Positions 41,950-62,800 of a stretch of 64,000 bases of DNA are shown here, one piece after another; position 1 is the stretch's first letter; the number at the start of each line of letters is the position of its first letter. The position numbers and the translations under genes are program-made. The notes below the pieces were generated by a model. That model saw nothing but the letters and a program-made list of their open reading frames with translations. It was not told where the DNA came from and did not search any database. This stretch comes from Blastocystis sp. Blastoise (Eukaryota > Sar > Bigyra > Opalinata > Blastocystidae): assembly GCA_039096225.1 (NCBI GenBank), contig JBBPEB010000004.1, positions 1,150,001-1,214,000 on the forward strand. Direction: 5' to 3'.

Positions 41950-44900
41950 TTAATAACCAAAATAAGGAGCATAATACTCTTTATTTTCATAAAATATTTT
42001 TAATTTTTTGACATTTTTCGAAAATAAATTAGCGTCAAAGCCGACAATATTCACTACAGAGGTACTAATACGGTATTCTTCCGTGAATTTTTTCATATTA
42101 ACACTATAATTATAAGATTTATCAATAAGAATACCTTTAATACCTATAGCAGTGTGATCCTTATAGTATTCGCTTTGATGAGTTCTACGGTAATCCAACA
42201 TATCAATTTCGTAGAATTCGGAGTTTGCCAGAAATGCAGTACACAACTGCTTGAAAAATTTATCTAGATTTGTCTGGATAGTAAATTTAGCATCTTTATT
42301 AAAATCTTTATAAGCGATAAAGATATCTTCTAAAGATACGACATTAATAAAGAAAGGATCTATTTGTAATTTAGCCTTGACAAAATCTTTCATATTATAT
42401 CCAGAAGAACATTTTTCTAAGAAATCTTCTTTACACGTGGCAATGGCTTGTATTCCTTGTAAAATATCCATATTAAGACGTAAGCTACGTTCAAGATAGT
42501 GGAAGATTAACCAAGAGAATATAGCATTTGTATGTTTTTTAAACAGAAAAGATACGTTAGGATCCATTGGATAGTGATTTTTCTTTTTAGCTAGAAGACC
42601 TTGATTCACGGCTATTTGGATTTCTTCCTCTGTATTATATCGTTTTCTCTTGGTTAAATAATCTCCTTTAGGTTCATAGAGTGTTACTGATGAAGGTGGT
42701 AAATAGCGGCAAAGTGACGGTAAGAAGACTACTCTACGTTCTAAAGGTCCGGCATTCACGGCAGTAGGTTGAATATTAGAGGTAACAAAAAGAATTCCCG
42801 TGTAATTATAGGTTTGAATAACATTAGAGTGAAGAAGACGAGCAGTAGCGTCTGATTTCTTTTCACATAATTCCTTGAATATACGAGATTCTAGGGGATT
42901 TACAGATTTCTTAAACCCTCCTGAATGTTCACTAAGTTCATTCATATAATACATAGTTTTATTATGTAAATTAAGTAGAAATGGAGAAGCTGAAGTTTCT
43001 TCAAAGTTATCAGGATTTACGGGAATACATTGATTATTACCTAGAATATTTTTCATAATATCAGTAGTTATAGTTTTTCCATTGGCACCAGAAGTACCAT
43101 ATAGGATATAACACCAAGTGTGATCGGAACAACAATAGAGTGATTGACAAATGATTTGCATCATAGCATCTGCGTAATCACCGTCGCCTCCACAATAACG
43201 TAATACATGTCTTTGAAATTGTTTTATAGCATCAAAGTCTTCAGGTACATGTTTTGTTTTAGGGACAATTTGTGCATTAATAATCATTTCTTCAAAGATA
43301 ATATCTTCTTTTTCATAGGGAATTACATCATAAGAAGGAGAATGTAAAAGGTGATATTGTGCTCCAGGGAATTCAGCTGTCCAATCATCTACAATGGTTG
43401 GTTCAGGGGCATTTGTTAGCGGAACAACAAAACCGACATTTGTATAAATAACATTTTCTCTATGTTTGAGATGAATATCTCTGAAAGTTTCATAAGATAT
43501 AGCGTAAGTTTTCTGATATCTAGCTAACCATTCCTTATAGTTTTTTTCATTTGTTTTAGAGGCATTTTGAAGTTTATTAAGAGAGAATATATGACTCTTA
43601 AGTTCTTTTTTAAATTGTTTTGCTTGTTGAAAGTTCTCGGCAATTGAATTAGCAAAAGAAGTAATTTCTGATTCAAAGAAGTTAACATCATAAGAATGGT
43701 GAATATTTCTTAAAACGTTGAATTCATCATAAGCATATATCTTTACGAATTTTTTAGATATATCTTCAACCATAACACGATCATTAAAGCAGAAAGTTTT
43801 GAATAATTCCACGAATGCTTGAGAAGTAACTTCATTATGTCTAGATATAGATTTCATCACATGGCAAAAGATATAATCATTCTTACAATCTATTGGTAGT
43901 TTATTGTGTTTTTGTAAGATAAAGAAAAGATACGAAGAATCTTTAAAATAATTATAAGATTCATAGCTAGACGTATTATTCCAAGTAGATTTGAATTTCT
44001 GTAAGCTACGAGTATGAGAACATGAGTTACTTATATTCATAAAAAGATTCAAAGTATCTTCAGAGTTATTATAATTATTTGTAGCACGTATAAGCTTATA
44101 CCATTCATTATGAGATTCAAAATAATATCCATTATCTATTTCAGAAATAAGTGTTAGTATTTGTTCTAATAAATTAAATTCATAATTATCTACTTCTTCA
44201 GAGTTATTATCCATAGTAGCAGGGTTAATATCTTTATAAGCTTTATTAATAGAGTATGCTGTAGTAAAACTATTAATAGTATCTTTATCAAAGGATAATA
44301 TTTTATGAAGGTATCTTTTTACATTATTTTTATTTAATAGTTCTGAAAATAAAACATAATTACTGAAACATACAAAAACATCATTAGGAGAATTATAATT
44401 AAGTAGAGTAGAATAATAAGCATTTTTGATTATATCAGAGTTTTCAAAATTAATTTTTTGCCAAGAATTTGATTCATACATATCGTAGAAATCATATGTA
44501 GACGGAGAATTAGTTTTAGAACATCCAAGCATCATTACACCATTATTTCGATTCTTATTTGCAATTACGGCTCCATCAATAAAGCGACTAGGAATTACAT
44601 TCATAGAGTTACATATAGATTTAACCATATCATCTTCAACAATTTCATTATATATATGAGTTAAAATATCAATTTTTATAAACCAATTGGTGAAGACGTG
44701 CATACCCCAACTATAGAAGAGACCATTTGCTTTTTCTTTTCTATTGACAAGCTTCTTAGTAGTAATAATATTCATATTATTTGGATTATATATCTTTAAG
44801 AACAATTGACTAATACGTTCAATCAGCATATGTATATTATTATCAGATAGATCGGAGAATTCATTTTCTTCACGGCAACAATCAAGATCAAACCATAATC

Positions 44901-45141
44901 GACGATAAGCTTTCTCAACAGTAGTAGGGACAACATCAATATAATGCTTAAGTTCAGGGACTCCACCAGGTTGTTTACTATCTAAATAATATTTATACAT
45001 ATAATCATAGAATTTCGAAGGGTTTTGAACAACTGTAGCAGCCCTGTTATCCATAGTATTTTCTTGATTGAAGGTAGAATACTTACAAATTGTTTGATTT
45101 TGAATTTCAGCCATTTTCAAATAAATATTTAAAAAATTCAA
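41950..45141 (-). CDS. Viral primase-superfamily 3 helicase (AEP-D5-like)
   Basis: The replication protein of the element, 1063 aa or 1054 aa if the second Met (45114, MAEIQ) is the start. The N-terminal third looks like an archaeo-eukaryotic primase: FDLD (residues 84-87) would be the first metal-binding motif, then SWGMHV, then IDGAV...NRNNGVMMLG near 185-205. The C-terminal half has SF3 helicase motifs: Walker A GTSGANGKT (about 683-691), motif B MYYMNELSE (about 729-737) and motif C FVTSNIQP (about 780-788). The middle (about 590-640) fits a D5-N-type linker. D5-like proteins form hexameric helicases that start DNA replication in many eukaryotic DNA viruses and Polinton-like viruses. It is transcribed leftward, away from the repeat array at 45.2-45.5 kb. 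Confidence 0.88.
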   Translation of the reverse strand: MNFLNIYLKMAEIQNQTICKYSTFNQENTMDNRAATVVQNPSKFYDYMYKYYLDSKQPGGVPELKHYIDVVPTTVEKAYRRLWFDLDCCREENEFSDLSDNNIHMLIERISQLFLKIYNPNNMNIITTKKLVNRKEKANGLFYSWGMHVFTNWFIKIDILTHIYNEIVEDDMVKSICNSMNVIPSRFIDGAVIANKNRNNGVMMLGCSKTNSPSTYDFYDMYESNSWQKINFENSDIIKNAYYSTLLNYNSPNDVFVCFSNYVLFSELLNKNNVKRYLHKILSFDKDTINSFTTAYSINKAYKDINPATMDNNSEEVDNYEFNLLEQILTLISEIDNGYYFESHNEWYKLIRATNNYNNSEDTLNLFMNISNSCSHTRSLQKFKSTWNNTSSYESYNYFKDSSYLFFILQKHNKLPIDCKNDYIFCHVMKSISRHNEVTSQAFVELFKTFCFNDRVMVEDISKKFVKIYAYDEFNVLRNIHHSYDVNFFESEITSFANSIAENFQQAKQFKKELKSHIFSLNKLQNASKTNEKNYKEWLARYQKTYAISYETFRDIHLKHRENVIYTNVGFVVPLTNAPEPTIVDDWTAEFPGAQYHLLHSPSYDVIPYEKEDIIFEEMIINAQIVPKTKHVPEDFDAIKQFQRHVLRYCGGDGDYADAMMQIICQSLYCCSDHTWCYILYGTSGANGKTITTDIMKNILGNNQCIPVNPDNFEETSASPFLLNLHNKTMYYMNELSEHSGGFKKSVNPLESRIFKELCEKKSDATARLLHSNVIQTYNYTGILFVTSNIQPTAVNAGPLERRVVFLPSLCRYLPPSSVTLYEPKGDYLTKRKRYNTEEEIQIAVNQGLLAKKKNHYPMDPNVSFLFKKHTNAIFSWLIFHYLERSLRLNMDILQGIQAIATCKEDFLEKCSSGYNMKDFVKAKLQIDPFFINVVSLEDIFIAYKDFNKDAKFTIQTNLDKFFKQLCTAFLANSEFYEIDMLDYRRTHQSEYYKDHTAIGIKGILIDKSYNYSVNMKKFTEEYRISTSVVNIVGFDANLFSKNVKKLKIFYENKEYYAPYFGY

Positions 45142-46462: not shown

Positions 46463-47305
46463 ATGTCAAAACAGTATTCATCCTTTGTTATTTGGCCTGG
46501 TAGTAAACGTCGGGTAGCTGGTCAAATAGCAGATATTTTAAAGTCAGTGCCTAGAAATAATAATAATGAAAATCCAATGTATATTGAACCTTTTATTGGT
46601 AGTGGTCATGTATTTTTAAATTTAATGATGCAAGATTATCAAGATAGAACTGATCGTAAATATGTAATTAGTGATACTAATACTGATTTAATAAATTGTT
46701 GGAAATATATTCGTGATTATCCAATAAAATTAATAGTTGAATTAGAAAAATTAAATGATGTAGAAGATACTTCTGATAATTATTATGAATTACGTAAAAT
46801 ATTTAATACTTGTACAAATACTTTGATGCGTTGTGCTTACTTTATTGCTTTAAATAAACGATGTTTTTGTGGTATATATTCTGTAAATCAAAAAGATGAA
46901 TTTAATACTCCATGGGGATATAAAAGAAATAAAAATATATTTAATAAAGAAAATATTTTACAAATATCATCTTTATTAAATTATAATAATGTAACTATAT
47001 TAAATGATGATTATCGTGATATAATAAAGAAATATCCTAAGGGTATATATTATATGGATCCACCCTATATGAATACATTTGATCGTTATAGTAAAGATAA
47101 ATTTTCAAATAATGAATTCTTAGAAACTGTGAAAGAAATGAAAGATGCTATATGTGTATATATATCATGCAGTAATGAAATGAAAAAATCTTTTGATGAT
47201 AAAGATATACAATATACTTCAGTATTATCATTTTATCGTCAAAATACATATGTAAGAAGTAAAGGTGTATTATATGATGAATATATTTTACATATAAATT
47301 ATTAA
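46463..47305 (+). CDS. Dam-like (D12 class) N6-adenine DNA methyltransferase
   Basis: 280 aa, the normal length for the D12 class. Motifs in order: FVIWPGSKRR (residues 8-17, equivalent to the F-x-W-x-G-x-K start of the Dam family), EPFIGSG (42-48, SAM binding), SDTNTDLINCWKYI, ALNKRCFCGIYSVNQ, and catalytic DPPY (about 199-202) followed by MNTFDRYSKDKFS. It would transfer methyl groups to adenine N6 in element DNA. A GATC-like target is usual for the family but cannot be read from the protein. It lies in the plus-strand run after the putative ssDNA-binding gene. Possible roles are protection, marking of element DNA or timing of replication. No restriction endonuclease is seen nearby. Confidence 0.85.
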   Translation: MSKQYSSFVIWPGSKRRVAGQIADILKSVPRNNNNENPMYIEPFIGSGHVFLNLMMQDYQDRTDRKYVISDTNTDLINCWKYIRDYPIKLIVELEKLNDVEDTSDNYYELRKIFNTCTNTLMRCAYFIALNKRCFCGIYSVNQKDEFNTPWGYKRNKNIFNKENILQISSLLNYNNVTILNDDYRDIIKKYPKGIYYMDPPYMNTFDRYSKDKFSNNEFLETVKEMKDAICVYISCSNEMKKSFDDKDIQYTSVLSFYRQNTYVRSKGVLYDEYILHINY

Positions 47306-47374: not shown

Positions 47375-48781
47375 ATGGAAACTTGTATATTAGGTATGCC
47401 AAGCCCTGGTGCGTTTGGTATAAATAAAATAGCAGTTGGTAAAGAAAATAGACCTTATAAACCTCAACCATTAAAAACATTAGATGAATATAATCCATTA
47501 ATATTTGAAGTAGGTCCAAATTCATCTTTTTTAGTATCAAATTTAAAAAAGAAAAATCAAATAGAAAATAAAATAAATTCTTATGTTAATCGTGATAAAG
47601 AATTTGGTATTAATACAGGTGCAGGAGGAGCTTTAATACAAGCAAAACCTGTAGGAAAAGGTGTAATAAATAAAAGGCGATATGATGATACTGTAGATAA
47701 TCAAGAAGAAGCTCATACTAGTGATGATCCACAGATTAATCCTACTAATTTTAAAGCACGTAATCGTATAGGTATAAAAGGTAAAGGACTAGCTTATAAT
47801 AGTCGTGAATTAAATAAATTACAAAATAATAAAGGTGGTGGTATAATTACAAAAACTTTAGGTCATACAATGAAAGCTATAGGTAAAGCTACAAAACGTA
47901 AATCAGTAGAACATATAGGTAATATGTTAACTGGTGATAATAATGATTCACAAGGTGGTATAGTAAATGGTTCATTAAATATAATAAAGAAGATAGCCAA
48001 TAGTAATCAAGGTAATGGAATTCATAGAAAATTAAATAAAACCTTTGGTGGTACATTATTAGAAAATAATTTATCAGGAGTTATTACTGCGATGGAGTCT
48101 TCTAGAGGTGGTTCTTTAGATGATAAATCTGTAAGGAAATTCTTTAAAACAAAAAATAAAAAAGGGAAATTAATTCCACCACAAATAGCTAATGCTTTAC
48201 AATTTATGGTAGATAACCGTAAAGGAATGCGTGCAGCAGGCTTAAAGCCACTGAATATGTCTAAATTACGTAAATATATAGATTTTAATGAATCTCCCGA
48301 TGGTGAACATTTAAGATTAAAGCGTGGTGGTGCTGTAGCAGATGAGGTAATGGGTGTAATAAATAATTTACCAAATATATGGAATATGGTAAAAGAAATA
48401 CCTTCTAAAGTAATGTATTATGCACAACCAGGTAAATTAAAAGAAGCATGGGATACAATGAAAGAAGAAAATGAAATCAAGAAACAAGAAATGGAAGTAG
48501 AAGGTGATTATCATAAAGAAGAATTAAAAGAAAGAAGGAAAAATTTAGAAAATTATCAAAAACAGAAAGCAGCAAATTCTCAACAAATAAATCAAAATGA
48601 TAATTTAATAAGTGATAATTCTCAAAAAACAAAAGATATTAAACAAATAGATGATAAACCCTATAAAGCAAGTGGTGTATTACGTGCTGCTGGTAGTAAA
48701 CAAAAATTAAAAGGTAAAGCATTTTATGAATATATGCAACAATGTAAACGAAATAAACATGGCAATAAGTCAAAAAACTAA
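47375..48781 (+). CDS. Virion precursor protein with repeated Gly-Gly sites (frame 0 product)
   Basis: A 468-aa basic protein. Six or more sites of form x-Gly-Gly-hydrophobic/small occur: GAGGALI, NKGGGIIT, SQGGIVNG, FGGTLLE, SRGGSLDD and KRGGAVAD. These resemble cleavage sites of adenain-type proteases. After KRGGA comes an amphipathic segment (VADEVMGVINNLPNIWNMVKE), like membrane-active pVI-type minor capsid proteins. The C-terminal third is charged and coiled. The gene ends in tcA AAA AAC TAA, a canonical -1 slippery heptamer directly before the stop, with the protease frame open in the -1 phase. The likely role is a minor capsid or core precursor processed during maturation. The specific family is not recognised. 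Confidence 0.65.
   Translation: METCILGMPSPGAFGINKIAVGKENRPYKPQPLKTLDEYNPLIFEVGPNSSFLVSNLKKKNQIENKINSYVNRDKEFGINTGAGGALIQAKPVGKGVINKRRYDDTVDNQEEAHTSDDPQINPTNFKARNRIGIKGKGLAYNSRELNKLQNNKGGGIITKTLGHTMKAIGKATKRKSVEHIGNMLTGDNNDSQGGIVNGSLNIIKKIANSNQGNGIHRKLNKTFGGTLLENNLSGVITAMESSRGGSLDDKSVRKFFKTKNKKGKLIPPQIANALQFMVDNRKGMRAAGLKPLNMSKLRKYIDFNESPDGEHLRLKRGGAVADEVMGVINNLPNIWNMVKEIPSKVMYYAQPGKLKEAWDTMKEENEIKKQEMEVEGDYHKEELKERRKNLENYQKQKAANSQQINQNDNLISDNSQKTKDIKQIDDKPYKASGVLRAAGSKQKLKGKAFYEYMQQCKRNKHGNKSKN
48772..48781 (+). promoter_or_regulatory. Candidate programmed -1 ribosomal frameshift site (A AAA AAC, then TAA)
   Basis: The heptamer A AAA AAC is in the correct X XXY YYZ phase relative to the upstream gene and is immediately followed by its stop codon. 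After a -1 slip, reading continues Leu-Arg-Gly-Gly-Gly into the protease frame. A purine-rich GAGGAGGAGG follows; CTCCT blocks near 48882-48896 could pair with it, but no strong stem is obvious. Confidence 0.7.
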
Positions 48782-49362
48782 GAGGAGGAGGTTTAGAAGA
48801 AAGTAAAAATGAGAAAATAATACAAGAACACTTAGATTGTGATAATCCTATTATAAGTGATTCTGATAGAAAAGTAACTCCTAGATCTCCTGAAAATTTT
48901 TCTCAAAAAATAAGTCAATATACATTAATTCCTAAAAATTTAATAAAACAAATTTATAATTATGGTTATTTAAATAAACCAACAAGTGCTGTAGCTTGTA
49001 GTCGTGCAAAATCAACAATGAATATGTTAAATCATTCAAATCCAAATGGATATAATTATTATAATAGTTATGAAGAATTTGAAAATAATATAGATAATGA
49101 TAGAACAAAATATAATATGATATTTCATCAAAGTAATTCAGATCCTAACTTTGGACATTTTGAAGCTATTATCTATACTCCAAAGAAAATAGAACATTAT
49201 AGTAGTCTTGGGAATAAACCTAATTTTAGTAGAAATTTTGTAAATAGTCATAACATAGTATTCAGTCCTATTCAACATCAAAGCACATCTGAAAATGCTA
49301 ATGGTTGCTTTTATTATTCTTTATTATATTTATTAAGTAATAGTAATATAATGCCTTGTTAA
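48778..49362 (+). CDS. Adenain/Ulp1-like maturation cysteine protease (frame -1 product)
   Basis: The frame is open from 48769 to 49362, but its first ATG is at 49018, downstream of plausible domain sequence. I therefore infer expression by -1 frameshifting from the preceding gene, adding 194 residues for a total of 662. The catalytic order fits clan CE: His in FGHFEAIIY, a following IEHYSSLG block, Gln in FSPIQHQ, and Cys in NANGCFYYSLLYLL near the C-terminus. The residue expected to be the catalytic acid (Asp/Glu before SLG) appears as Ser, and Gly-Cys replaces the usual Cys-Gly. The domain begins LRGGG, itself a likely self-cleavage site. Function: processing of capsid precursors at Gly-Gly sites. 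An internal start at 49018 would give a shorter 114-aa product. Confidence 0.62.
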   Translation, partial: LRGGGLEESKNEKIIQEHLDCDNPIISDSDRKVTPRSPENFSQKISQYTLIPKNLIKQIYNYGYLNKPTSAVACSRAKSTMNMLNHSNPNGYNYYNSYEEFENNIDNDRTKYNMIFHQSNSDPNFGHFEAIIYTPKKIEHYSSLGNKPNFSRNFVNSHNIVFSPIQHQSTSENANGCFYYSLLYLLSNSNIMPC

Positions 49363-49448: not shown

Positions 49449-49868
49449 ATGTCACAACCTATTAATATGCATAATATGACTTATGCAAATTTTGCTGAAG
49501 AATTACGTGGTATAAAGAAAGATGCTATAAGGTCCTATGGAAATCGTATATTTAGTTTATGTTGTAGATTTATAGATTTTCATAAGAATGCAAATTTTAC
49601 AAAAAATGAATTAAATGGCTTACGTCGTGCCAGTGAATTTATAGATGATAATCAATGTCGTAAAGAAATTCAAAATATTATAGATAAGGAAATACAAAAA
49701 ATATATTCTAAAAATATTTATAATAATAATAATTCTATTCTATCTTCACAACCACATATATCTTCTATAGATAATGATTTAACACAGCCACCCTTTATAA
49801 ATAATAATCGTATGAATCAAAATGATTGTATGTCAGTAAATTCTTTTTTTAATAATAATAATAATTAA
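49449..49868 (+). CDS. Small viral protein, function unknown
   Basis: 139 aa, not recognised. The N-terminal two thirds look alpha-helical (TYANFAEELRGIKKDAIRS, then FTKNELNGLRRASEFIDDN) and carry several Cys and Arg. The C-terminus is a low-complexity Asn/Ser tail ending in poly-Asn. It is the last gene of the first plus-strand run and is convergent with the minus-strand pair that follows. Confidence 0.6.
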   Translation: MSQPINMHNMTYANFAEELRGIKKDAIRSYGNRIFSLCCRFIDFHKNANFTKNELNGLRRASEFIDDNQCRKEIQNIIDKEIQKIYSKNIYNNNNSILSSQPHISSIDNDLTQPPFINNNRMNQNDCMSVNSFFNNNNN

Positions 49869-54878: not shown

Positions 54879-56180
54879 ATGAATGGATTTCCACAAGATT
54901 TTTTACCTGCAGTAAATCATCAAACTATTACAGAAAATTTTATAACTGTATCTGTAACAACTGATCAAAGTTTATTAGAAGCTCCATGTAATGTAGATTT
55001 TCGTTATAATACTGTTGATAATCCTTATATTGATTTTAGTAATTCTTATTTAGAATTATGGTTTGGTGTTAGAAAAAGTGCTACTAATAATACTGCTGTT
55101 ACACAAAGTTCTAATATATATTCTATAGTTGATAAAGTTAATATTAATATGACTTATATTAGTCCAGTTGGAAAAGATGTAGCTATAAACTTTGCTGAAC
55201 CATCATTAAATAGTAGTAAAGCTAGAAAATTTGTAGCACTTAAAGAATTAAGTAAATTTGAATTAGATAAATCTATGTATACTCCATGTGAAAAATTATA
55301 TGCAAAAAAAGATGAATTACATCTTATAGAAGCTATGAGACAAAATGCTACAACTTCAAAAGATGCATTTACAACTTATAAAATATATATTCCTTTAATG
55401 CTTATTACTGGTTTAGCTACATTTGATTGTGCTATTAAAATAAAATCAATGTCATTTCAATTTGTTTTAAATCATATTAAGAAAATAGCTACAAACTTAG
55501 ATGGTATTTCAGCATTTGTTATTCAAAAAGCATTTATTAATTTTAGACATATGTATGATATTAACTGGGGTAATGATCCAAAAAATTTAATAAAATGTAT
55601 ACCTAATAATTGTGAAATTTGTTTTTTTACTGAACAAATTGGTACTCAAACAATAACAAATTCAACTGGTAATACTGCATCATTATCTTTTACAGGAGAT
55701 TTAGTAACCAGTAAAAATCGAAGTATTACATTTGTTCCTGATTATTGTTTAATGTATATTACAGATTCAGAAGATAGTATGATTCCTGTTAATACTCATT
55801 GTCCAACAACTATTAATTTTCAAATTGGTGGAAAGAATATGTTTACACAAACACAATTTCCTACAGCTACTAGATTTATACCTGATACATATACTTTAGA
55901 AATTATTCCTAATAGTATGTTATATAATGTATGGAGATCACAATCAAATCCTATGTGTGTATTAGATGGTAATGAATGGTATAATCAACCTATATATTTA
56001 TTTCCTATTGCTTCTGTTGTTGATGTTAATACAGAATCTGGTTGTGAAATTAATTATTATATACAAACATCTCCTTCTGGTATTAATAAATATCAGTTAA
56101 CTAATGGTGCTTCTAAAACACAAAATATATTTATTAATTTTATTTTTGTGAAATTTGTTAGAGATGGTTCTATGAATTAA
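54879..56180 (+). CDS. Capsid-type protein 2 (candidate major capsid protein, short paralogue)
   Basis: 433 aa. Aligns by eye with the 529-aa protein along its full length: FSNSYLELWFGVRK, KDVAINFAEPSLNSSKARKF, KFELDKSMYTPCEKLY, IPLMLITGLATFDC, FVPDYCLMYITDSED, MFTQTQFPTATRF and WYNQPIYLFPIASVV. It lacks the N-terminal insertion of paralogue 1. One copy may form hexons while the other has a special position, or the two may co-assemble. There is a 110-nt A+T-rich gap to the upstream gene and a 51-nt gap to the next. Major capsid identity is inferred from context. Confidence 0.62.
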   Translation: MNGFPQDFLPAVNHQTITENFITVSVTTDQSLLEAPCNVDFRYNTVDNPYIDFSNSYLELWFGVRKSATNNTAVTQSSNIYSIVDKVNINMTYISPVGKDVAINFAEPSLNSSKARKFVALKELSKFELDKSMYTPCEKLYAKKDELHLIEAMRQNATTSKDAFTTYKIYIPLMLITGLATFDCAIKIKSMSFQFVLNHIKKIATNLDGISAFVIQKAFINFRHMYDINWGNDPKNLIKCIPNNCEICFFTEQIGTQTITNSTGNTASLSFTGDLVTSKNRSITFVPDYCLMYITDSEDSMIPVNTHCPTTINFQIGGKNMFTQTQFPTATRFIPDTYTLEIIPNSMLYNVWRSQSNPMCVLDGNEWYNQPIYLFPIASVVDVNTESGCEINYYIQTSPSGINKYQLTNGASKTQNIFINFIFVKFVRDGSMN

Positions 56181-57009: not shown

Positions 57010-58056
57010 ATGGTTAATAAAAAGAATTTATTAGAAAATGATAAAAGTGGTTGTGGTGTATTAGCATTTAAATATGGTAAAACACATCATAAAACTTATG
57101 AATCAAAATTTATATTAATTATTGCTAGAACATTTAGTGGTAAATCATGGTTAACAGTTAATTTACTTGCTTCTATGGATTTAAATAATAAATTTCGTCA
57201 AGTAAGTTTATTTTGTCCTAAAGCTAGTTCTATGAATGAATGTTATACATCATTACAAGATTTATTAGAACATGCTGAAATAAAATATCAATGGTATGAT
57301 AGTATTGATGATAAATTTAAAAAAATAAAAAGTATTGATGATCTTGTAACTACATATAAATTACCAGAACATAATTTTATTATTTTTGATGATATATATC
57401 CATTATCAAAAGAAACAAAACTATTATTGATATCATTATTATCTAAAGGTAGACATTATAAACAAAATGCTATTATATGTTTACAAAGCCATAAAGATAT
57501 TACAAATCAAAGTGTATTAAGTCAAGTAAGTCATTTTTTTATTAATAGTCAAGTTTTAAAACGTGATCCTGGTTTATTATTAAAAAAATTACAGTTAGAT
57601 CCACCTAATTTAGAAGAAATATTATCTGATATGGAATTAATAGAAGATAAACATCAATTTTTTATGTTAAAACAAGGTTGTGATGATTTAATACCTTGGA
57701 CTAATCCTGATGTTGGTACAAAACAAAATGCTTATAAAATGATGAAAAAACGTAAATGGACTGATATGGATGAAGCAAATGAAAAACGTGAAGAAGGAAA
57801 TGGTGGTAATATTAATTCTGATAATAAGAAAAGTAATAATGTAAATAATGATTATCTTTCAAAAAGAATAAAAAAAATATTACCAAATGAAGAAGATATA
57901 CAACTACGTGGTACAGAAATACCTGATAAAGATAAACCTAAAGATGATATTCTGCAAATATTACATGAACAAATACTACAAGATCAAAGATTAAAATATT
58001 TTAATCCATATCCTATGAAACGTAGATATCATGGTGCTCCATATCAATATAATTAA
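57010..58056 (+). CDS. A32/FtsK-HerA-like DNA packaging ATPase
   Basis: 348 aa. Walker A is ARTFSGKSWLT (FSGKS at residues 42-46) after a beta strand (KFILII). Walker B is FIIFDDIY (about 123-130), followed by a helix and a sensor-like strand AIICLQSHKDITNQS. This is the architecture of the genome-packaging ATPase of Polinton-like viruses, virophages and NCLDVs, which drives DNA into the procapsid at a vertex. The C-terminal third (about 230-348) is low complexity, Asn/Lys-rich and unlike the family. Residues 11-18 read DKSGCGVL, a motif shared almost base for base with the 574-aa virion protein and possibly a maturation-protease site. Immediate neighbours are capsid genes. Confidence 0.8.
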   Translation: MVNKKNLLENDKSGCGVLAFKYGKTHHKTYESKFILIIARTFSGKSWLTVNLLASMDLNNKFRQVSLFCPKASSMNECYTSLQDLLEHAEIKYQWYDSIDDKFKKIKSIDDLVTTYKLPEHNFIIFDDIYPLSKETKLLLISLLSKGRHYKQNAIICLQSHKDITNQSVLSQVSHFFINSQVLKRDPGLLLKKLQLDPPNLEEILSDMELIEDKHQFFMLKQGCDDLIPWTNPDVGTKQNAYKMMKKRKWTDMDEANEKREEGNGGNINSDNKKSNNVNNDYLSKRIKKILPNEEDIQLRGTEIPDKDKPKDDILQILHEQILQDQRLKYFNPYPMKRRYHGAPYQYN

Positions 58057-58862: not shown

Positions 58863-59851
58863 ATGGATCAAAATAGTAGATATAGACATATTACTTTACA
58901 AGATATTTTAAATCGTAATTTTAAGCAACAATCTTGGGATCCATGGTTACCAAATAGTTATATATGTGAAGATGAACAACCAGTAATGCGTATTGCTCAT
59001 GATCCTAATGCACAAAATTCTATGAGTCAAATTATGAATATGGAAAAATATTTAAAAGAAAAAATGACTGATAAAGATATATTTATTAGTCAAATGAATG
59101 CAGCTAGAAAAGAAGGTGATGAAGAACGAGTTACAGCTATGGCTAAAATATATGCTAATAATAGTGGACTTTATACATCTAAACAAAACTGGTCTTTAAA
59201 CAAAGAGTATTTATATATTTTAGTTTAATATAGATATATAGTCTAGAAAAAATCCCTCCAAATCTAAAATTCCAAAATCGAGTTGATGATAAAAATACAT
59301 CCCCTAATCGTGGTTATGTTAATTCTTTACTAAATTATTTTACTGTTAAAAAAGAAGAAAATAATGATTTTTTTAATAATAATGAATTACCAAGTTTAAG
59401 ATATGAAAATGAATATGGTCATACTGATAATAAAGATAACAAACAAGATGATAAACAAGATAATAATCAAAATAATAATGATCAACAATCAGATATACAA
59501 ACAGTATTAGATACAAGAGTAAATAATTTTGTTAATATGGTAACTTCATGTTTATTTACGGATGGTAAAATTAATGGAAAACAGTTACGTAATTATTTTG
59601 AAAAAAGTGAATTATTATATACTCAACCAAATCGTATACGATATGATCCAGAACAAAATAAAGCTTTATATGAAAAAAGAGAATATATATCTAATTTTAA
59701 ATATATACTAAATTCTATCAATCTAAAACAAAGCCCTGAAAATGTTAAATATATTATATATGAAAAATTAAGTAAATATTTTGAAGACTATAAATTTGGT
59801 AAAGAAGAAGAAAACATGTTATGGAATAATCCATATTCATTTCGTAAATAA
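58863..59851 (+). CDS. Viral protein of unknown function, apparently split by a 35-nt intron
   Basis: The first frame (58863-59228) and a second frame open from 59234 to 59851 are in different phases. Removing 59207-59241 (GTATTTA...ATATAG) joins them in frame and gives 317 aa. The joined codon is GAT and the second part continues LEKIPPNLKFQN. The N-terminal part has SRYRHITLQDILNRNFKQQSWDPWLPNSY and a short helical region. The middle is a Gln/Asn/Asp low-complexity linker. The C-terminal part (LFTDGKINGKQLRNYFEKS to NMLWNNPYSFRK) looks globular. If unspliced, it would stop as a 121-aa protein. No family recognised. Context suggests a virion protein. Confidence 0.55.
59207..59241 (+). other. 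Candidate 35-nt spliceosomal mini-intron in a viral gene
   Basis: Begins GTATTTATAT and ends ATATATAG, the same signals as host introns. Of the nearby AG sites, only the one at 59240-59241 restores the frame. A host intron of about 31 nt is proposed at the start of the Ig-repeat gene, so this size is plausible here. Confidence 0.55.
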
Positions 59852-59925: not shown

Positions 59926-61650
59926 ATGCAAAGTGCACCTATTGGTAATCAGTGTCCAGGTTCATTTCATTGTAATAAACTTGGAACAAAAGAATTATGG
60001 TTAGGATATACTAGGCCACATAAAGTTCCTACTATTCTTGTTACACAACCTATTAACTATAATATAATTCCTAATAGTATTGAAAAAGTATGGGAAGATG
60101 AAAATGAAATGCATACACGTAGTTATCTTATGGGTAATACCCCTGAAAATAATAAAGCTTCTATTTCTAATATTCCTATTGAAACATCACCAAATAATGA
60201 TTCTGAAGAATATGAATCTAATGATTCTGAAGAAGGTGATTCTGAAGATAATGAATCTGATGATGATGAATCTGATGAGTCTCTAAAAGGATCTGGAGGA
60301 GGACTACTGCCAGATGGCAGAATCCCAAGGCATATCGTAAAACGTCTACAAAGATATATTAACGTTGATTACCCTAGATTCAGACGAAATAATCCTGATT
60401 CAGACAATAAATATGATTCTCTATTAACATCTGAAAATTTTAATAAATATATTAAAGTTGATAAAAGTGGTTGTGGTATACTAGATCCCGAAGGAAGTGG
60501 TTGGTGGGATACCGCCAAAAATTTATTATCAAAAACATATAATACTGGAAAATCCGTTTATAACCTTGGTACTAAAGCAGTTAAAGGTGCTAGTAAATTA
60601 TTAAATGGTATTGATTATGCTACAAATATTCCTGGAAAAATTAAGGAGAAATTAGATACTGTTTCTAAAAATATTAATGGGAAAATCATACATACAAAAA
60701 ATGGAATTAAAAGGGAATATTATTCTCGTTTTGGAGATTCTACTGAAGCACCAAAAACTATGTTAAATAATTTAAAAGCTTTAAAAAATACTCAATATGA
60801 GGGTATGACTGATAAAATGAGTAAGTTAACAAAAAAACGTATTCATAAGTCTTATATTAAAAGTGATGAATTAAAAACAAATGAAGGTAAACAAAATGTT
60901 ACTAAACGTATGAACAATGTTGATAATTTAAAAGATGGTTTTAACGCATTGGCTAAAGCTGAAAATAAAAAAATTGATAAATATAATAAAAGTCAAATTA
61001 AAGCTCAAAAACAAAAACAAAAAGATATTGAATATGAAAAAGCTAAACAAGGTACTTTACAGAAAATTAAAGGTAGTCTATCAGATATGGTTACTAATGC
61101 TGGTAAAAAAATATATAATAAAACTGTTGGAGAAGTTACAGGTAATAAGTATACTGAAGAAAAACCAGATCAAAAGAATAAATTAGATCTTGTGGAAACT
61201 GGAGGAGATAGACGTAAAGTAACTAAACCTAAAAAACAATTTAATAAAGATACTTTAAGCCAATTGAGTGATGATAAAAAATCTGCAATTGAACAAAAAC
61301 GTGCTGAACGTGCTGAAAGAATTAAACATACTGAAGAAATTAATCAAAAACGTAGAGATGGTTTTAAAGCAAGAAGAGCTGAAGCCCATAAAAAAGTAGA
61401 TGAAGAAGAAACAAAACGAAAAAAAGAGAATGATGAGTGGAATAATAAGAGCTACTTAGGTCAATTCTACTCTTATATGACGACGCCAAGTAAATCAAAA
61501 GGAGAAACTGAGAAACAAAAAGACGACGGTGATTGGGTAAATAAAGAAAATGACATAAGCAACATCGATGTTGCGTCAGGTATGCGTCGACGTCGACGAA
61601 CCCTACGTAAGAAAAAGAGAAACCAGATTCTCAAAGAAATAAATTGGTAA
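59926..61650 (+). CDS. Large basic virion protein with pVI-like amphipathic region
   Basis: 574 aa. The N-terminal region is followed by an acidic Ser/Glu/Asp stretch (about residues 85-120), then GSGGGLLPDGR. Next come a helical region and DKSGCGILDPEGSGWWDTAK (about 179-198). GWWDTAKNLLSKTYNTGKSV continues into a long amphipathic stretch that resembles adenoviral pVI and related membrane-lytic proteins, released by protease cleavage. The C-terminal half is Lys/Glu/Gln-rich coiled coil and ends in a cluster of arginines and lysines (MRRRRRTLRKKKRN), probably DNA binding. GSGGG and KSGCG are candidate cleavage sites. A role in virion core and membrane penetration is inferred. It is preceded by the TTTGTTTTGTTAT motif. 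Confidence 0.55.
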   Translation: MQSAPIGNQCPGSFHCNKLGTKELWLGYTRPHKVPTILVTQPINYNIIPNSIEKVWEDENEMHTRSYLMGNTPENNKASISNIPIETSPNNDSEEYESNDSEEGDSEDNESDDDESDESLKGSGGGLLPDGRIPRHIVKRLQRYINVDYPRFRRNNPDSDNKYDSLLTSENFNKYIKVDKSGCGILDPEGSGWWDTAKNLLSKTYNTGKSVYNLGTKAVKGASKLLNGIDYATNIPGKIKEKLDTVSKNINGKIIHTKNGIKREYYSRFGDSTEAPKTMLNNLKALKNTQYEGMTDKMSKLTKKRIHKSYIKSDELKTNEGKQNVTKRMNNVDNLKDGFNALAKAENKKIDKYNKSQIKAQKQKQKDIEYEKAKQGTLQKIKGSLSDMVTNAGKKIYNKTVGEVTGNKYTEEKPDQKNKLDLVETGGDRRKVTKPKKQFNKDTLSQLSDDKKSAIEQKRAERAERIKHTEEINQKRRDGFKARRAEAHKKVDEEETKRKKENDEWNNKSYLGQFYSYMTTPSKSKGETEKQKDDGDWVNKENDISNIDVASGMRRRRRTLRKKKRNQILKEINW

Positions 61651-61684: not shown

Positions 61685-62800
61685 TTGAATTTTTTGAAAA
61701 TGAACTGTACTATTCCTATGAAGAAAATGAAGAATATACATTATAATTCTATTTACTTTACGATTATCCATGTAGCTAAGTGGACTGATGAATGGAAAAA
61801 TAAGCAATTGAGTAACTTTGAACAATATATTAATCCTATGCCTGAGAAAGTATTCATGCGAATGATTGGTACACCTACTATCTTCATTGATTATATTCGT
61901 AATAAGTATAAACCTTCTATTAATACAATTAAAGCAATTGCCGAACTTATTATGTTTATCTATAAAGAAGATAAAACCTTAAAGAAGCGTATTATTGTTA
62001 TTAAAAGCTGGGAAGCCATGTATTCTATTATTAATAGTATTTATACTGATGTTCTTAAATCGAAGACTGATGCTGCTTTAAAGATGTTAAAAGATAACAA
62101 TTGCTCTTTAGAAAATTTTAAAAAGATAAGAGATACTTGTTCTGTTGCTGATCCTCTACGTTTATTAATTGATCTATATGTCTTAATGCCTCCTGCTCGT
62201 GCTGATTATGGTAACTTGATGATATATAAAGAAAAACCTGAAAAACCTGAATCTACTTCTTATGTCATTCCTACTCTAGATAGTACTATTGAAAATCCTT
62301 CTTATGAAATTCATGTTACTGAATATAAAACTGTCAAAACTTATGGTGAACGTATACTTAAGTGTTGTTCTGAATTTAATTCAGATTTAAATGAAATACT
62401 TACTTTGAATTCTAATAGTCGTTATTTATTCCATAAACCTGGTAAGAATGAATGTTATTCTCCTAAACGCTTTTCTGAATTTGTTAAAAATATTATGAGA
62501 CGTGTTGTTCCTGGAGGTATTACTATTAATAGTCTACGTAAACTCTATTGCTCTACTCATGGTAATAACTTTGAAGAAATGAATCAATTGGCTTTAGATC
62601 TCGGGCACTCTCTTAAAACTCATATTAATAACTATATGTCTATTACTACTACTGATTTCTTAACTAATTTAACTAAAGAAAATCAACTTACTATTACTCC
62701 TGTTCCTGCTGATGATGAAGATATACCTATTAACGTTAATAATGATTCTTCTAATCTTGAAAACTGGTGTAAAAACTTAAGTCAATGTTGGACTGAATAA
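61685..62800 (+). CDS. Tyrosine recombinase (integrase)
   Basis: 371 aa. The catalytic domain shows the first Arg in PPARADYG (about residue 171), box II in INSLRKLYCSTHG (Arg about 286), the second His in LGHSLKTH (about 307) and the nucleophile Tyr in INNYM (about 316). The residue three before the box II Arg is Asn where many family members have His. The N-terminal half (about 1-130) has helices typical of the core-binding domain. The enzyme would integrate and possibly excise the element by site-specific recombination through a 3'-phosphotyrosine intermediate. It sits near the right of the visible element. The candidate site at the left border is the palindrome or tRNA-like sequence. Confidence 0.8.
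   Translation: MNFLKMNCTIPMKKMKNIHYNSIYFTIIHVAKWTDEWKNKQLSNFEQYINPMPEKVFMRMIGTPTIFIDYIRNKYKPSINTIKAIAELIMFIYKEDKTLKKRIIVIKSWEAMYSIINSIYTDVLKSKTDAALKMLKDNNCSLENFKKIRDTCSVADPLRLLIDLYVLMPPARADYGNLMIYKEKPEKPESTSYVIPTLDSTIENPSYEIHVTEYKTVKTYGERILKCCSEFNSDLNEILTLNSNSRYLFHKPGKNECYSPKRFSEFVKNIMRRVVPGGITINSLRKLYCSTHGNNFEEMNQLALDLGHSLKTHINNYMSITTTDFLTNLTKENQLTITPVPADDEDIPINVNNDSSNLENWCKNLSQCWTE

Follow-up and report, generated by a model that had tools for sequence, protein, structure and literature searches.

A conserved A_AAA_AAC junction suggests -1 frameshifting between a virion-precursor-like gene and a protease-like reading frame in integrated elements of Blastocystis

Introduction

How a protease-like reading frame that lies directly behind a virion-precursor-like gene, one base out of frame and without a conserved start codon, could be translated is the question raised by an integrated virus-like element of Blastocystis sp. 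Blastoise. The element was found in a stretch of 64,000 nucleotides (nt) of the assembly GCA_039096225.1 (contig JBBPEB010000004.1, positions 1,150,001 to 1,214,000 of the forward strand), called the window below, and all positions refer to it. The assembly has 33.3 Mb in 34 contigs, and copies were counted across the whole of it. The sequence comparison presented here covers the slip site, its phase and conservation, a downstream stem with two-sided pair changes, the purifying selection that acts on the -1 frame, and the lack of a conserved start; together these make programmed -1 frameshifting at the junction very likely.

Results

Organisation and conservation of the junction

The 0-frame open reading frame (ORF) of 468 amino acids (aa) ends with TCA AAA AAC TAA, which places the heptamer A_AAA_AAC in the phase that a -1 slip needs (Table 1). 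The -1 frame reads LRGGGLEESK... from the CTA at 48778 and stops at 49362; it is also open for three codons 5' of this CTA, and its first ATG is codon 81 (49018). A ribosome changing frame at the heptamer would make a fusion of 468 + 194 = 662 residues. The original prediction, made from the letters of the window, had claimed a precursor ending on the heptamer in slippage phase, a -1 frame open from just 5' of it and a predicted fusion of 662 residues, and the sequence agrees with all three. In-phase AAAAAAC was found at two of the 6411 tri-codon positions of 17 element ORFs, the junction being one of them, and looser slippery heptamers (XXXYYYZ, where Y is A or T and Z is not G) at 74 of these positions.

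Searching the genome with the -1-frame ORF gave 28 matches, which belonged to family A (4 copies, 92-100% identity to the window copy), family B (21 copies, 65-68%) and family C (3 copies, 49%). The heptamer was present and in phase in every one of the 28 copies of these three divergent families; the retention of the heptamer with an out-of-frame protease, which the original prediction had looked for in related elements, was thus found inside this genome. The 0-frame stop follows the AAC immediately in the four A copies, after six codons (SGEGIW) in the 21 B copies and after five (YQPEV) in the three C copies. The codon 5' of the heptamer also varies, being TCA in families A and B but CAA in family C. 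Identity to the precursor of the window was 34% for a precursor of family B and 36% for one of family C, and the precursor C-terminus near the heptamer differs between families. Because the preceding codon varies and the precursors differ strongly, the heptamer is not simply hitchhiking on a conserved protein. The 28 copies correspond to 18 distinct sequences over 180 nt, and copies within a family are closely related, the truly independent comparison being that of the three families. A sequencing error or a broken gene at the junction was excluded, since the phase is the same in all copies.

Some copies are damaged outside the junction. The -1 ORF is broken in two family-B copies (117 aa in one, 176 aa in the other). 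In the C28 copy of family A (L042/L069) the precursor contains a stop; heptamer and stem are still kept in all three copies (L062, L063 and L069). Another family-A copy, L041/L070 (G000:C23:1500-6000), appears to be a mosaic, with a precursor 71-72% identical to that of the window, a C-terminal part like that of the C28 copy and a junction like that of the window copy.

Candidate stimulatory stem downstream of the heptamer

Folding predicted a stem in all 18 distinct sequences, starting 7 nt (families A and B) or 6 nt (family C) after the heptamer and closing a loop of 84-86 nt. This distance is within the 5-9 nt of canonical eukaryotic -1 sites, and the stem had no place in the original prediction. 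Its arms are AGGAGGTTTAG/CTAGATCTCCT in family A, AGGGGATCTGG/CTAGATCCCCT in family B and CCAGAGGTTTA/TAAACCTCTGG in family C, in one register throughout, and the run of pairs is 11 base pairs (bp) long in 27 of the 28 copies; the remaining one, L041, contains a mismatch and has a run of 10 bp. Pair statistics were obtained from 13 copies (11 distinct rows) over 12 pairs, with a slide of 1-3 columns as control. Standard pairs filled 90.9% of the cells, compared with 22.7-62.9% after sliding. Two-sided changes were seen at five of the 12 pairs, one of them within family A, and the covariation score was above that of all 500 shuffles; related sequences can beat this control even without structure.

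An 11-bp helix at the same spacing was found at 16 of 1556 positions sampled in 15 element ORFs, and the native helix length was reached by 6-63 of 1000 synonymous shuffles in the eight copies tested. Measured against synonymous shuffles, the folding energy stood out clearly in family B, where two copies gave z values of -4.67 and -4.66, and in family C (-3.62); L040 gave -3.3. Rfam gave no match to the region 48600-49100 at E 1.

Coding of the -1 frame

Codons 1-80 of the -1 frame showed nonsynonymous (dN) and synonymous (dS) divergences of 0.040 and 0.346 between the window copy and L042. Between families, dN and dS were 0.35 and 0.80 (A-B), 0.61 and 0.83 (A-C) and 0.56 and 1.07 (B-C), these dS values being near saturation. 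Judged from such rates, purifying selection acts on the first 80 codons, and the -1 frame encodes a genuine protein from the very beginning.

The first ATG of this frame is codon 81, 81, 53 and 53 in the four family-A copies, codon 19 in family B and codon 82 in family C; because these positions differ between copies and families, no start codon is conserved. The lack of an early ATG, claimed for the window copy, therefore extends to families A and C but not to family B. Initiation without an AUG at the first codon of the -1 frame was rejected, this codon being CTA, CTG or CTC and so not conserved.

Nature of the -1-frame product

The motifs GHFE, YSSLGN, IQxQ and NxNGC were invariant in the eight aligned relatives of the -1-frame protein, all of which have H127, N146, Q166/Q168 and C177 in that order, an arrangement (His-(Asn)-Gln-Cys) like that of clan CE proteases. 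The catalytic roles of these residues are putative, and the acidic residue usual in such proteases is not apparent. Profile searches gave no match for the window protein in Pfam at E 10, no informative Pfam match for the eight aligned members and nothing better than E 0.9 in PDB, results that count for a product of another kind, in which the frameshift would join a different domain, such as a capsid or cement extension, to the precursor. This question is separate from that of how the junction is translated. The invariant motifs in clan CE-like order speak against such a domain, as does the gene neighbourhood, since excerpts of the literature describe such elements as usually carrying a maturation protease; we therefore consider another domain unlikely and a protease the probable product. 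The name adenain-like, used in the original prediction, is less secure than the frameshift: the GHFE and NGC motifs are conserved, but no Pfam or PDB profile backs it.

The LRGGG at the start of the -1 frame had also been proposed as a cleavage site. Families A and B share the LRGG, but family C has LPTRGL instead, and sites of adenain type ([MIL]xGG-x and [MIL]xGx-G) were not enriched, relative to shuffles, among 17 proteins of the element and three further precursors. An RGG at precursor residues 317-319, invariant in four of four aligned precursors, is another candidate cleavage site.

Five database proteins matched the protease-like protein. The first 42 residues of one of them, P0004, match the tail of the family-B precursor (40%, E 2e-6, in a single comparison), and the protease part (53% over 187 residues) follows without a change of frame. 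Because P0004 carries both parts in one frame, the fusion of precursor and protease is independently supported; because it is fused without a shift, frameshifting is not universal. A shift could fix the protease:precursor ratio, as had been suggested, but P0004 reaches its fusion without one. The precursor had at least six database matches, all from Blastocystis sp. Blastoise (8000 candidates scored). No relatives were confirmed in IMG/VR with protease or capsid-like queries, and genome_contigs gave no further ones.

Proposed mechanism and alternative translations of the junction

We propose, with high confidence in the explanation as a whole, that most ribosomes on the precursor gene would stop at the TAA and release the precursor, and that a minority would slip back one base on A_AAA_AAC, aided by the 11-bp stem 7 nt downstream. 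The shifted ribosomes would read the -1 frame to its end and make the 662-residue precursor-protease fusion; its precursor part would carry it into assembling particles, after which the protease would cleave itself as well as the precursors. Slippage and its efficiency, a cysteine protease as product, packaging and cleavage are the steps that we infer here.

Several observations weigh against this explanation. The folding energy was modest in the window copy (z -1.66, 58 of 1000 shuffles as low) and in L041 (z -1.06, 143 of 1000). The outermost of the 12 stem pairs is formed in family C only (1 of 11 distinct rows), and further pair types, one of five pair measures, were unremarkable, with 82 of 500 shuffles as high. 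A conserved pseudoknot was sought in six copies and none was found, helices between the loop and downstream sequence having no common register in A and C and amounting in B to at most one A/T-rich 6-bp helix; pseudoknots are not obligatory at -1 sites, where simple stems occur, according to a section of PMC3835772. To these are added the near saturation of dS between families, two database gene models that join the ORFs by introns and two relatives that may have their own start, considered in what follows.

The removal of a short intron over the junction would bring the precursor and protease reading frames together in the processed mRNA. The NCBI models P0093 and P0098, of two family-A copies, join the two ORFs in this way, apparently from a GTAAAC donor, and frame-restoring GT..TAG pairs of up to 300 nt were found in 28/28 copies when any GT was accepted. 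When the donor was specified, GTAA..TAG pairs restored the frame in 4/4 A and 2/3 C copies but in 0/21 B, GTAT..TAG pairs in 13/21 B copies but in 0/4 A and 0/3 C, and GTAAG..TAG pairs in 0/28, showing that there is no specific type of donor that fits every family. The acceptors of the two models differ (EYMQQ joined to YCDNP and EYMQQ joined to WGGLEES), and both models remove the conserved heptamer and continue into the gene that follows; the four models listed for family B (P0094-P0097) end at SGEGIW without the protease. In the 16 gaps between chaperonin exons that were taken as reference for host splicing, GTAT was present in 15 donor regions and GTAA in one, and the gaps had 38-72% T and 28-53% purine, unlike the P0093 model intron (16% T, 75% purine). 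Because no one specific donor type fits the three families, we read the joined models as gene-caller artefacts. Another gene of the element does contain a host-like intron candidate, near 59207-59243, but splicing at the junction would leave heptamer and stem unexplained and is very unlikely.

Expression of the protease as a separate gene, from an ATG inside the frame or through re-initiation downstream of the precursor stop, is favoured by the ATGs present in the -1 frame, by the stop adjoining the junction and by P0001 and P0002, whose listed sequences begin with Met close to the corresponding position, making relatives with their own ATG possible. As described above, the position of the ATG is not conserved, and in families A and C such a start would lose wholly or largely the codons 1-80 that are conserved as protein. 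Heptamer and stem would again be left without an explanation, and we regard a separate gene as highly improbable. Transcriptional slippage on the run of A followed by C (six A in families A and B, seven in family C), which would yield frame-shifted mRNAs, is the most improbable, because A6 is short for it and because a fixed distance of 6-7 nt to a conserved stem, together with the A_AAA_AAC phase, is characteristic of slippage by ribosomes.

The surrounding element

The genes for the ATPase, replication and integration span about 22 kb (Table 1), within the 15-30 kb expected of a polinton-like integrated element, and are repeated in the genome; this gene content suggests that the element around the junction is polinton-like. 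A search for terminal inverted repeats of at least 40 bp found A/T-rich arms only.

Table 1. Positions in the window of the junction and of the other features of the element
Feature	Position	Strand	Remarks
DNA primase/helicase-like protein	41950..45141	-	phrog_1156, E 6.5e-14
D12-class adenine methyltransferase	46463..47305	+	PF02086, E 4.4e-37
Virion-precursor-like ORF, 468 aa	47375..48781	+	0 frame; basic; six Gly-Gly; N-terminus conserved among families
Precursor tail peptide, LKGKAFYEYMQQCK	48707..48748	+	shortly 5' of the slip site; proposed activator-like tail, speculative
Slippery heptamer A_AAA_AAC	48772..48778	+	in phase; 28/28 copies
-1-frame ORF, protease-like	48778..49362	+	194 codons from CTA; without conserved ATG start
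Spacer, 7 nt (family C: 6 nt)	48779..48785	+	includes the 0-frame TAA stop, 48779-48781
5' arm of 11-bp candidate stimulatory stem	48786..48796	+	AGGAGGTTTAG
3' arm of 11-bp candidate stimulatory stem	48881..48891	+	CTAGATCTCCT
Candidate catalytic His127 (GHFE)	49156..49158	+	invariant in 8/8 aligned relatives
Candidate catalytic Cys177 (NGC)	49306..49308	+	invariant in 8/8 aligned relatives
ORF of 139 aa with own ATG	49449..49868	+	directly 3' of the protease-like ORF; fused to the protease in two NCBI gene models
Two paralogous capsid-like ORFs, 529 and 433 aa	53179..56180	+	capsid label inferred
Packaging-type ATPase	57010..58056	+	phrog_2666, E 1.5e-9
Tyrosine-recombinase-like integrase	61685..62800	+	phrog_216, weak match, E 0.0013

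The two paralogous ORFs downstream of the junction are putatively capsid-like. One of them, used as query, gave 56 rows in the genome, 27 near-full-length and 29 to the second paralog (some fragmentary). A database protein named for Blastocystis sp. Blastoise, a stramenopile, is 100% identical to the window's capsid-like protein. Polinton-like viruses have a major capsid protein with a double jelly roll; an alignment of 18 capsid-like members had no match in Pfam or PDB. The capsid-like ORF at 54879-56180 had 87 database matches, mostly unnamed, on ENA/Logan contigs of up to 23.7 kb, and because of these matches such elements or their viruses seem to be common beyond the Blastocystis sp. Blastoise assembly.

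Two further observations were made by eye. An intron candidate of host type (GTATTT...ATATAG, about 35 nt) lies at 59207-59243, at the end of a 121-aa ORF (58863-59228), and since it sits between this ORF and the open stretch to 59851, the two may be exons of one element gene. The N-terminus of a 574-aa protein (59926-61650) resembles that of the 468-aa precursor (Pro-Gly ... Lys-Glu ... Gln-Pro), suggesting that they are two paralogous virion precursors.

Discussion

Retroviruses use -1 frameshifting to meter the protease, of aspartic type in their case, that travels into the particle fused to the structural precursor. The layout found here, with an in-phase heptamer in all copies, a spacer and a stem, matches the gag-pro sites of these viruses, in agreement with the Gag-Pro-like expression logic proposed originally. 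Excerpts of PMC3835772 tabulate AAAAAAC with spacers of 6-8 nt for gag-pro of MMTV, BLV and HTLV-I, where, as here, a downstream structure follows the identical heptamer and the structural precursor is in the 0 frame and the protease in the -1 frame; in a part of PMC5009743, A_AAA_AAC also ranks with the heptamers on which mammalian ribosomes shift most readily. In contrast to the retroviral sites, the junction of Blastocystis belongs to an integrated DNA element with an unrelated precursor and a candidate protease of cysteine type, and its stem closes a loop of 84-86 nt with no pseudoknot conserved.

Among adenovirus-like DNA viruses, a passage of PMC11071296 suggests, in hypothetical wording based on KnotInFrame, that some adintoviruses might make hexon-adenain ('Hexain') fusions by a -1 shift that joins a virion protein to the maturation protease. 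The 0-frame partner there is the major capsid protein and here another precursor, and the evidence presented here is comparative, from 28 copies in three families. Apart from this hypothetical precedent, a tested -1 shift for the maturation protease of a DNA virus was not found in the accessible text of the open-licence literature (including PMC11071296, PMC10120064, PMC8547959 and PMC12721341).

The element resembles the polinton-like viruses and virophages of protist genomes in its packaging ATPase, primase-helicase, tyrosine recombinase and many integrated copies, as these are described in portions of PMC10120064 and PMC8547959. It is unlike them in that neither its capsid-like nor its protease-like proteins have a match among Pfam or PDB profiles and in that no terminal inverted repeats of at least 40 bp were seen beyond A/T-rich arms. 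The word Blastocystis is absent from the main text of PMC10120064, and titles and abstract openings of the open-licence literature mentioned no polinton- or virophage-type elements in Blastocystis. The junction itself shows that gene callers can drop or mis-splice a protease of this kind, and such dropped calls may bear on polinton-like genomes without a recognised protease, of which excerpts of the literature contain one case.

The precursor tail shortly 5' of the slip site invites a more speculative thought. This Cys-bearing peptide, LKGKAFYEYMQQCK in family A and LRGRAFYEYMQKCK in family C, stayed alike while most other precursor sequence diverged, and the shift would place the protease right behind it. 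Adenovirus protease is activated by a Cys-bearing peptide (pVIc) cut from a virion precursor, as stated in part of PMC4246237. In adenoviruses, the protease comes from a separate gene and is not fused. On the strength of this likeness and of the conserved A/C tail, it is conceivable that the tail is an activator that works in cis while tethered to the protease, like a pVIc switch within a Gag-Pro-like fusion. We think this doubtful: family B has no clear equivalent of the tail, which counts against the idea. The adenoviral precursor and protease need not be homologous to those of the element. If it were true, DNA and RNA viruses would have independently reached the same packaging-coupled protease logic.

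For the frameshift itself, the same heptamer, spacing and stem in integrated DNA virus-like elements suggest, by analogy with the retroviral sites, a convergence on one expression logic, and the junction predicts that the ribosomes of Blastocystis would frameshift at the A_AAA_AAC site.

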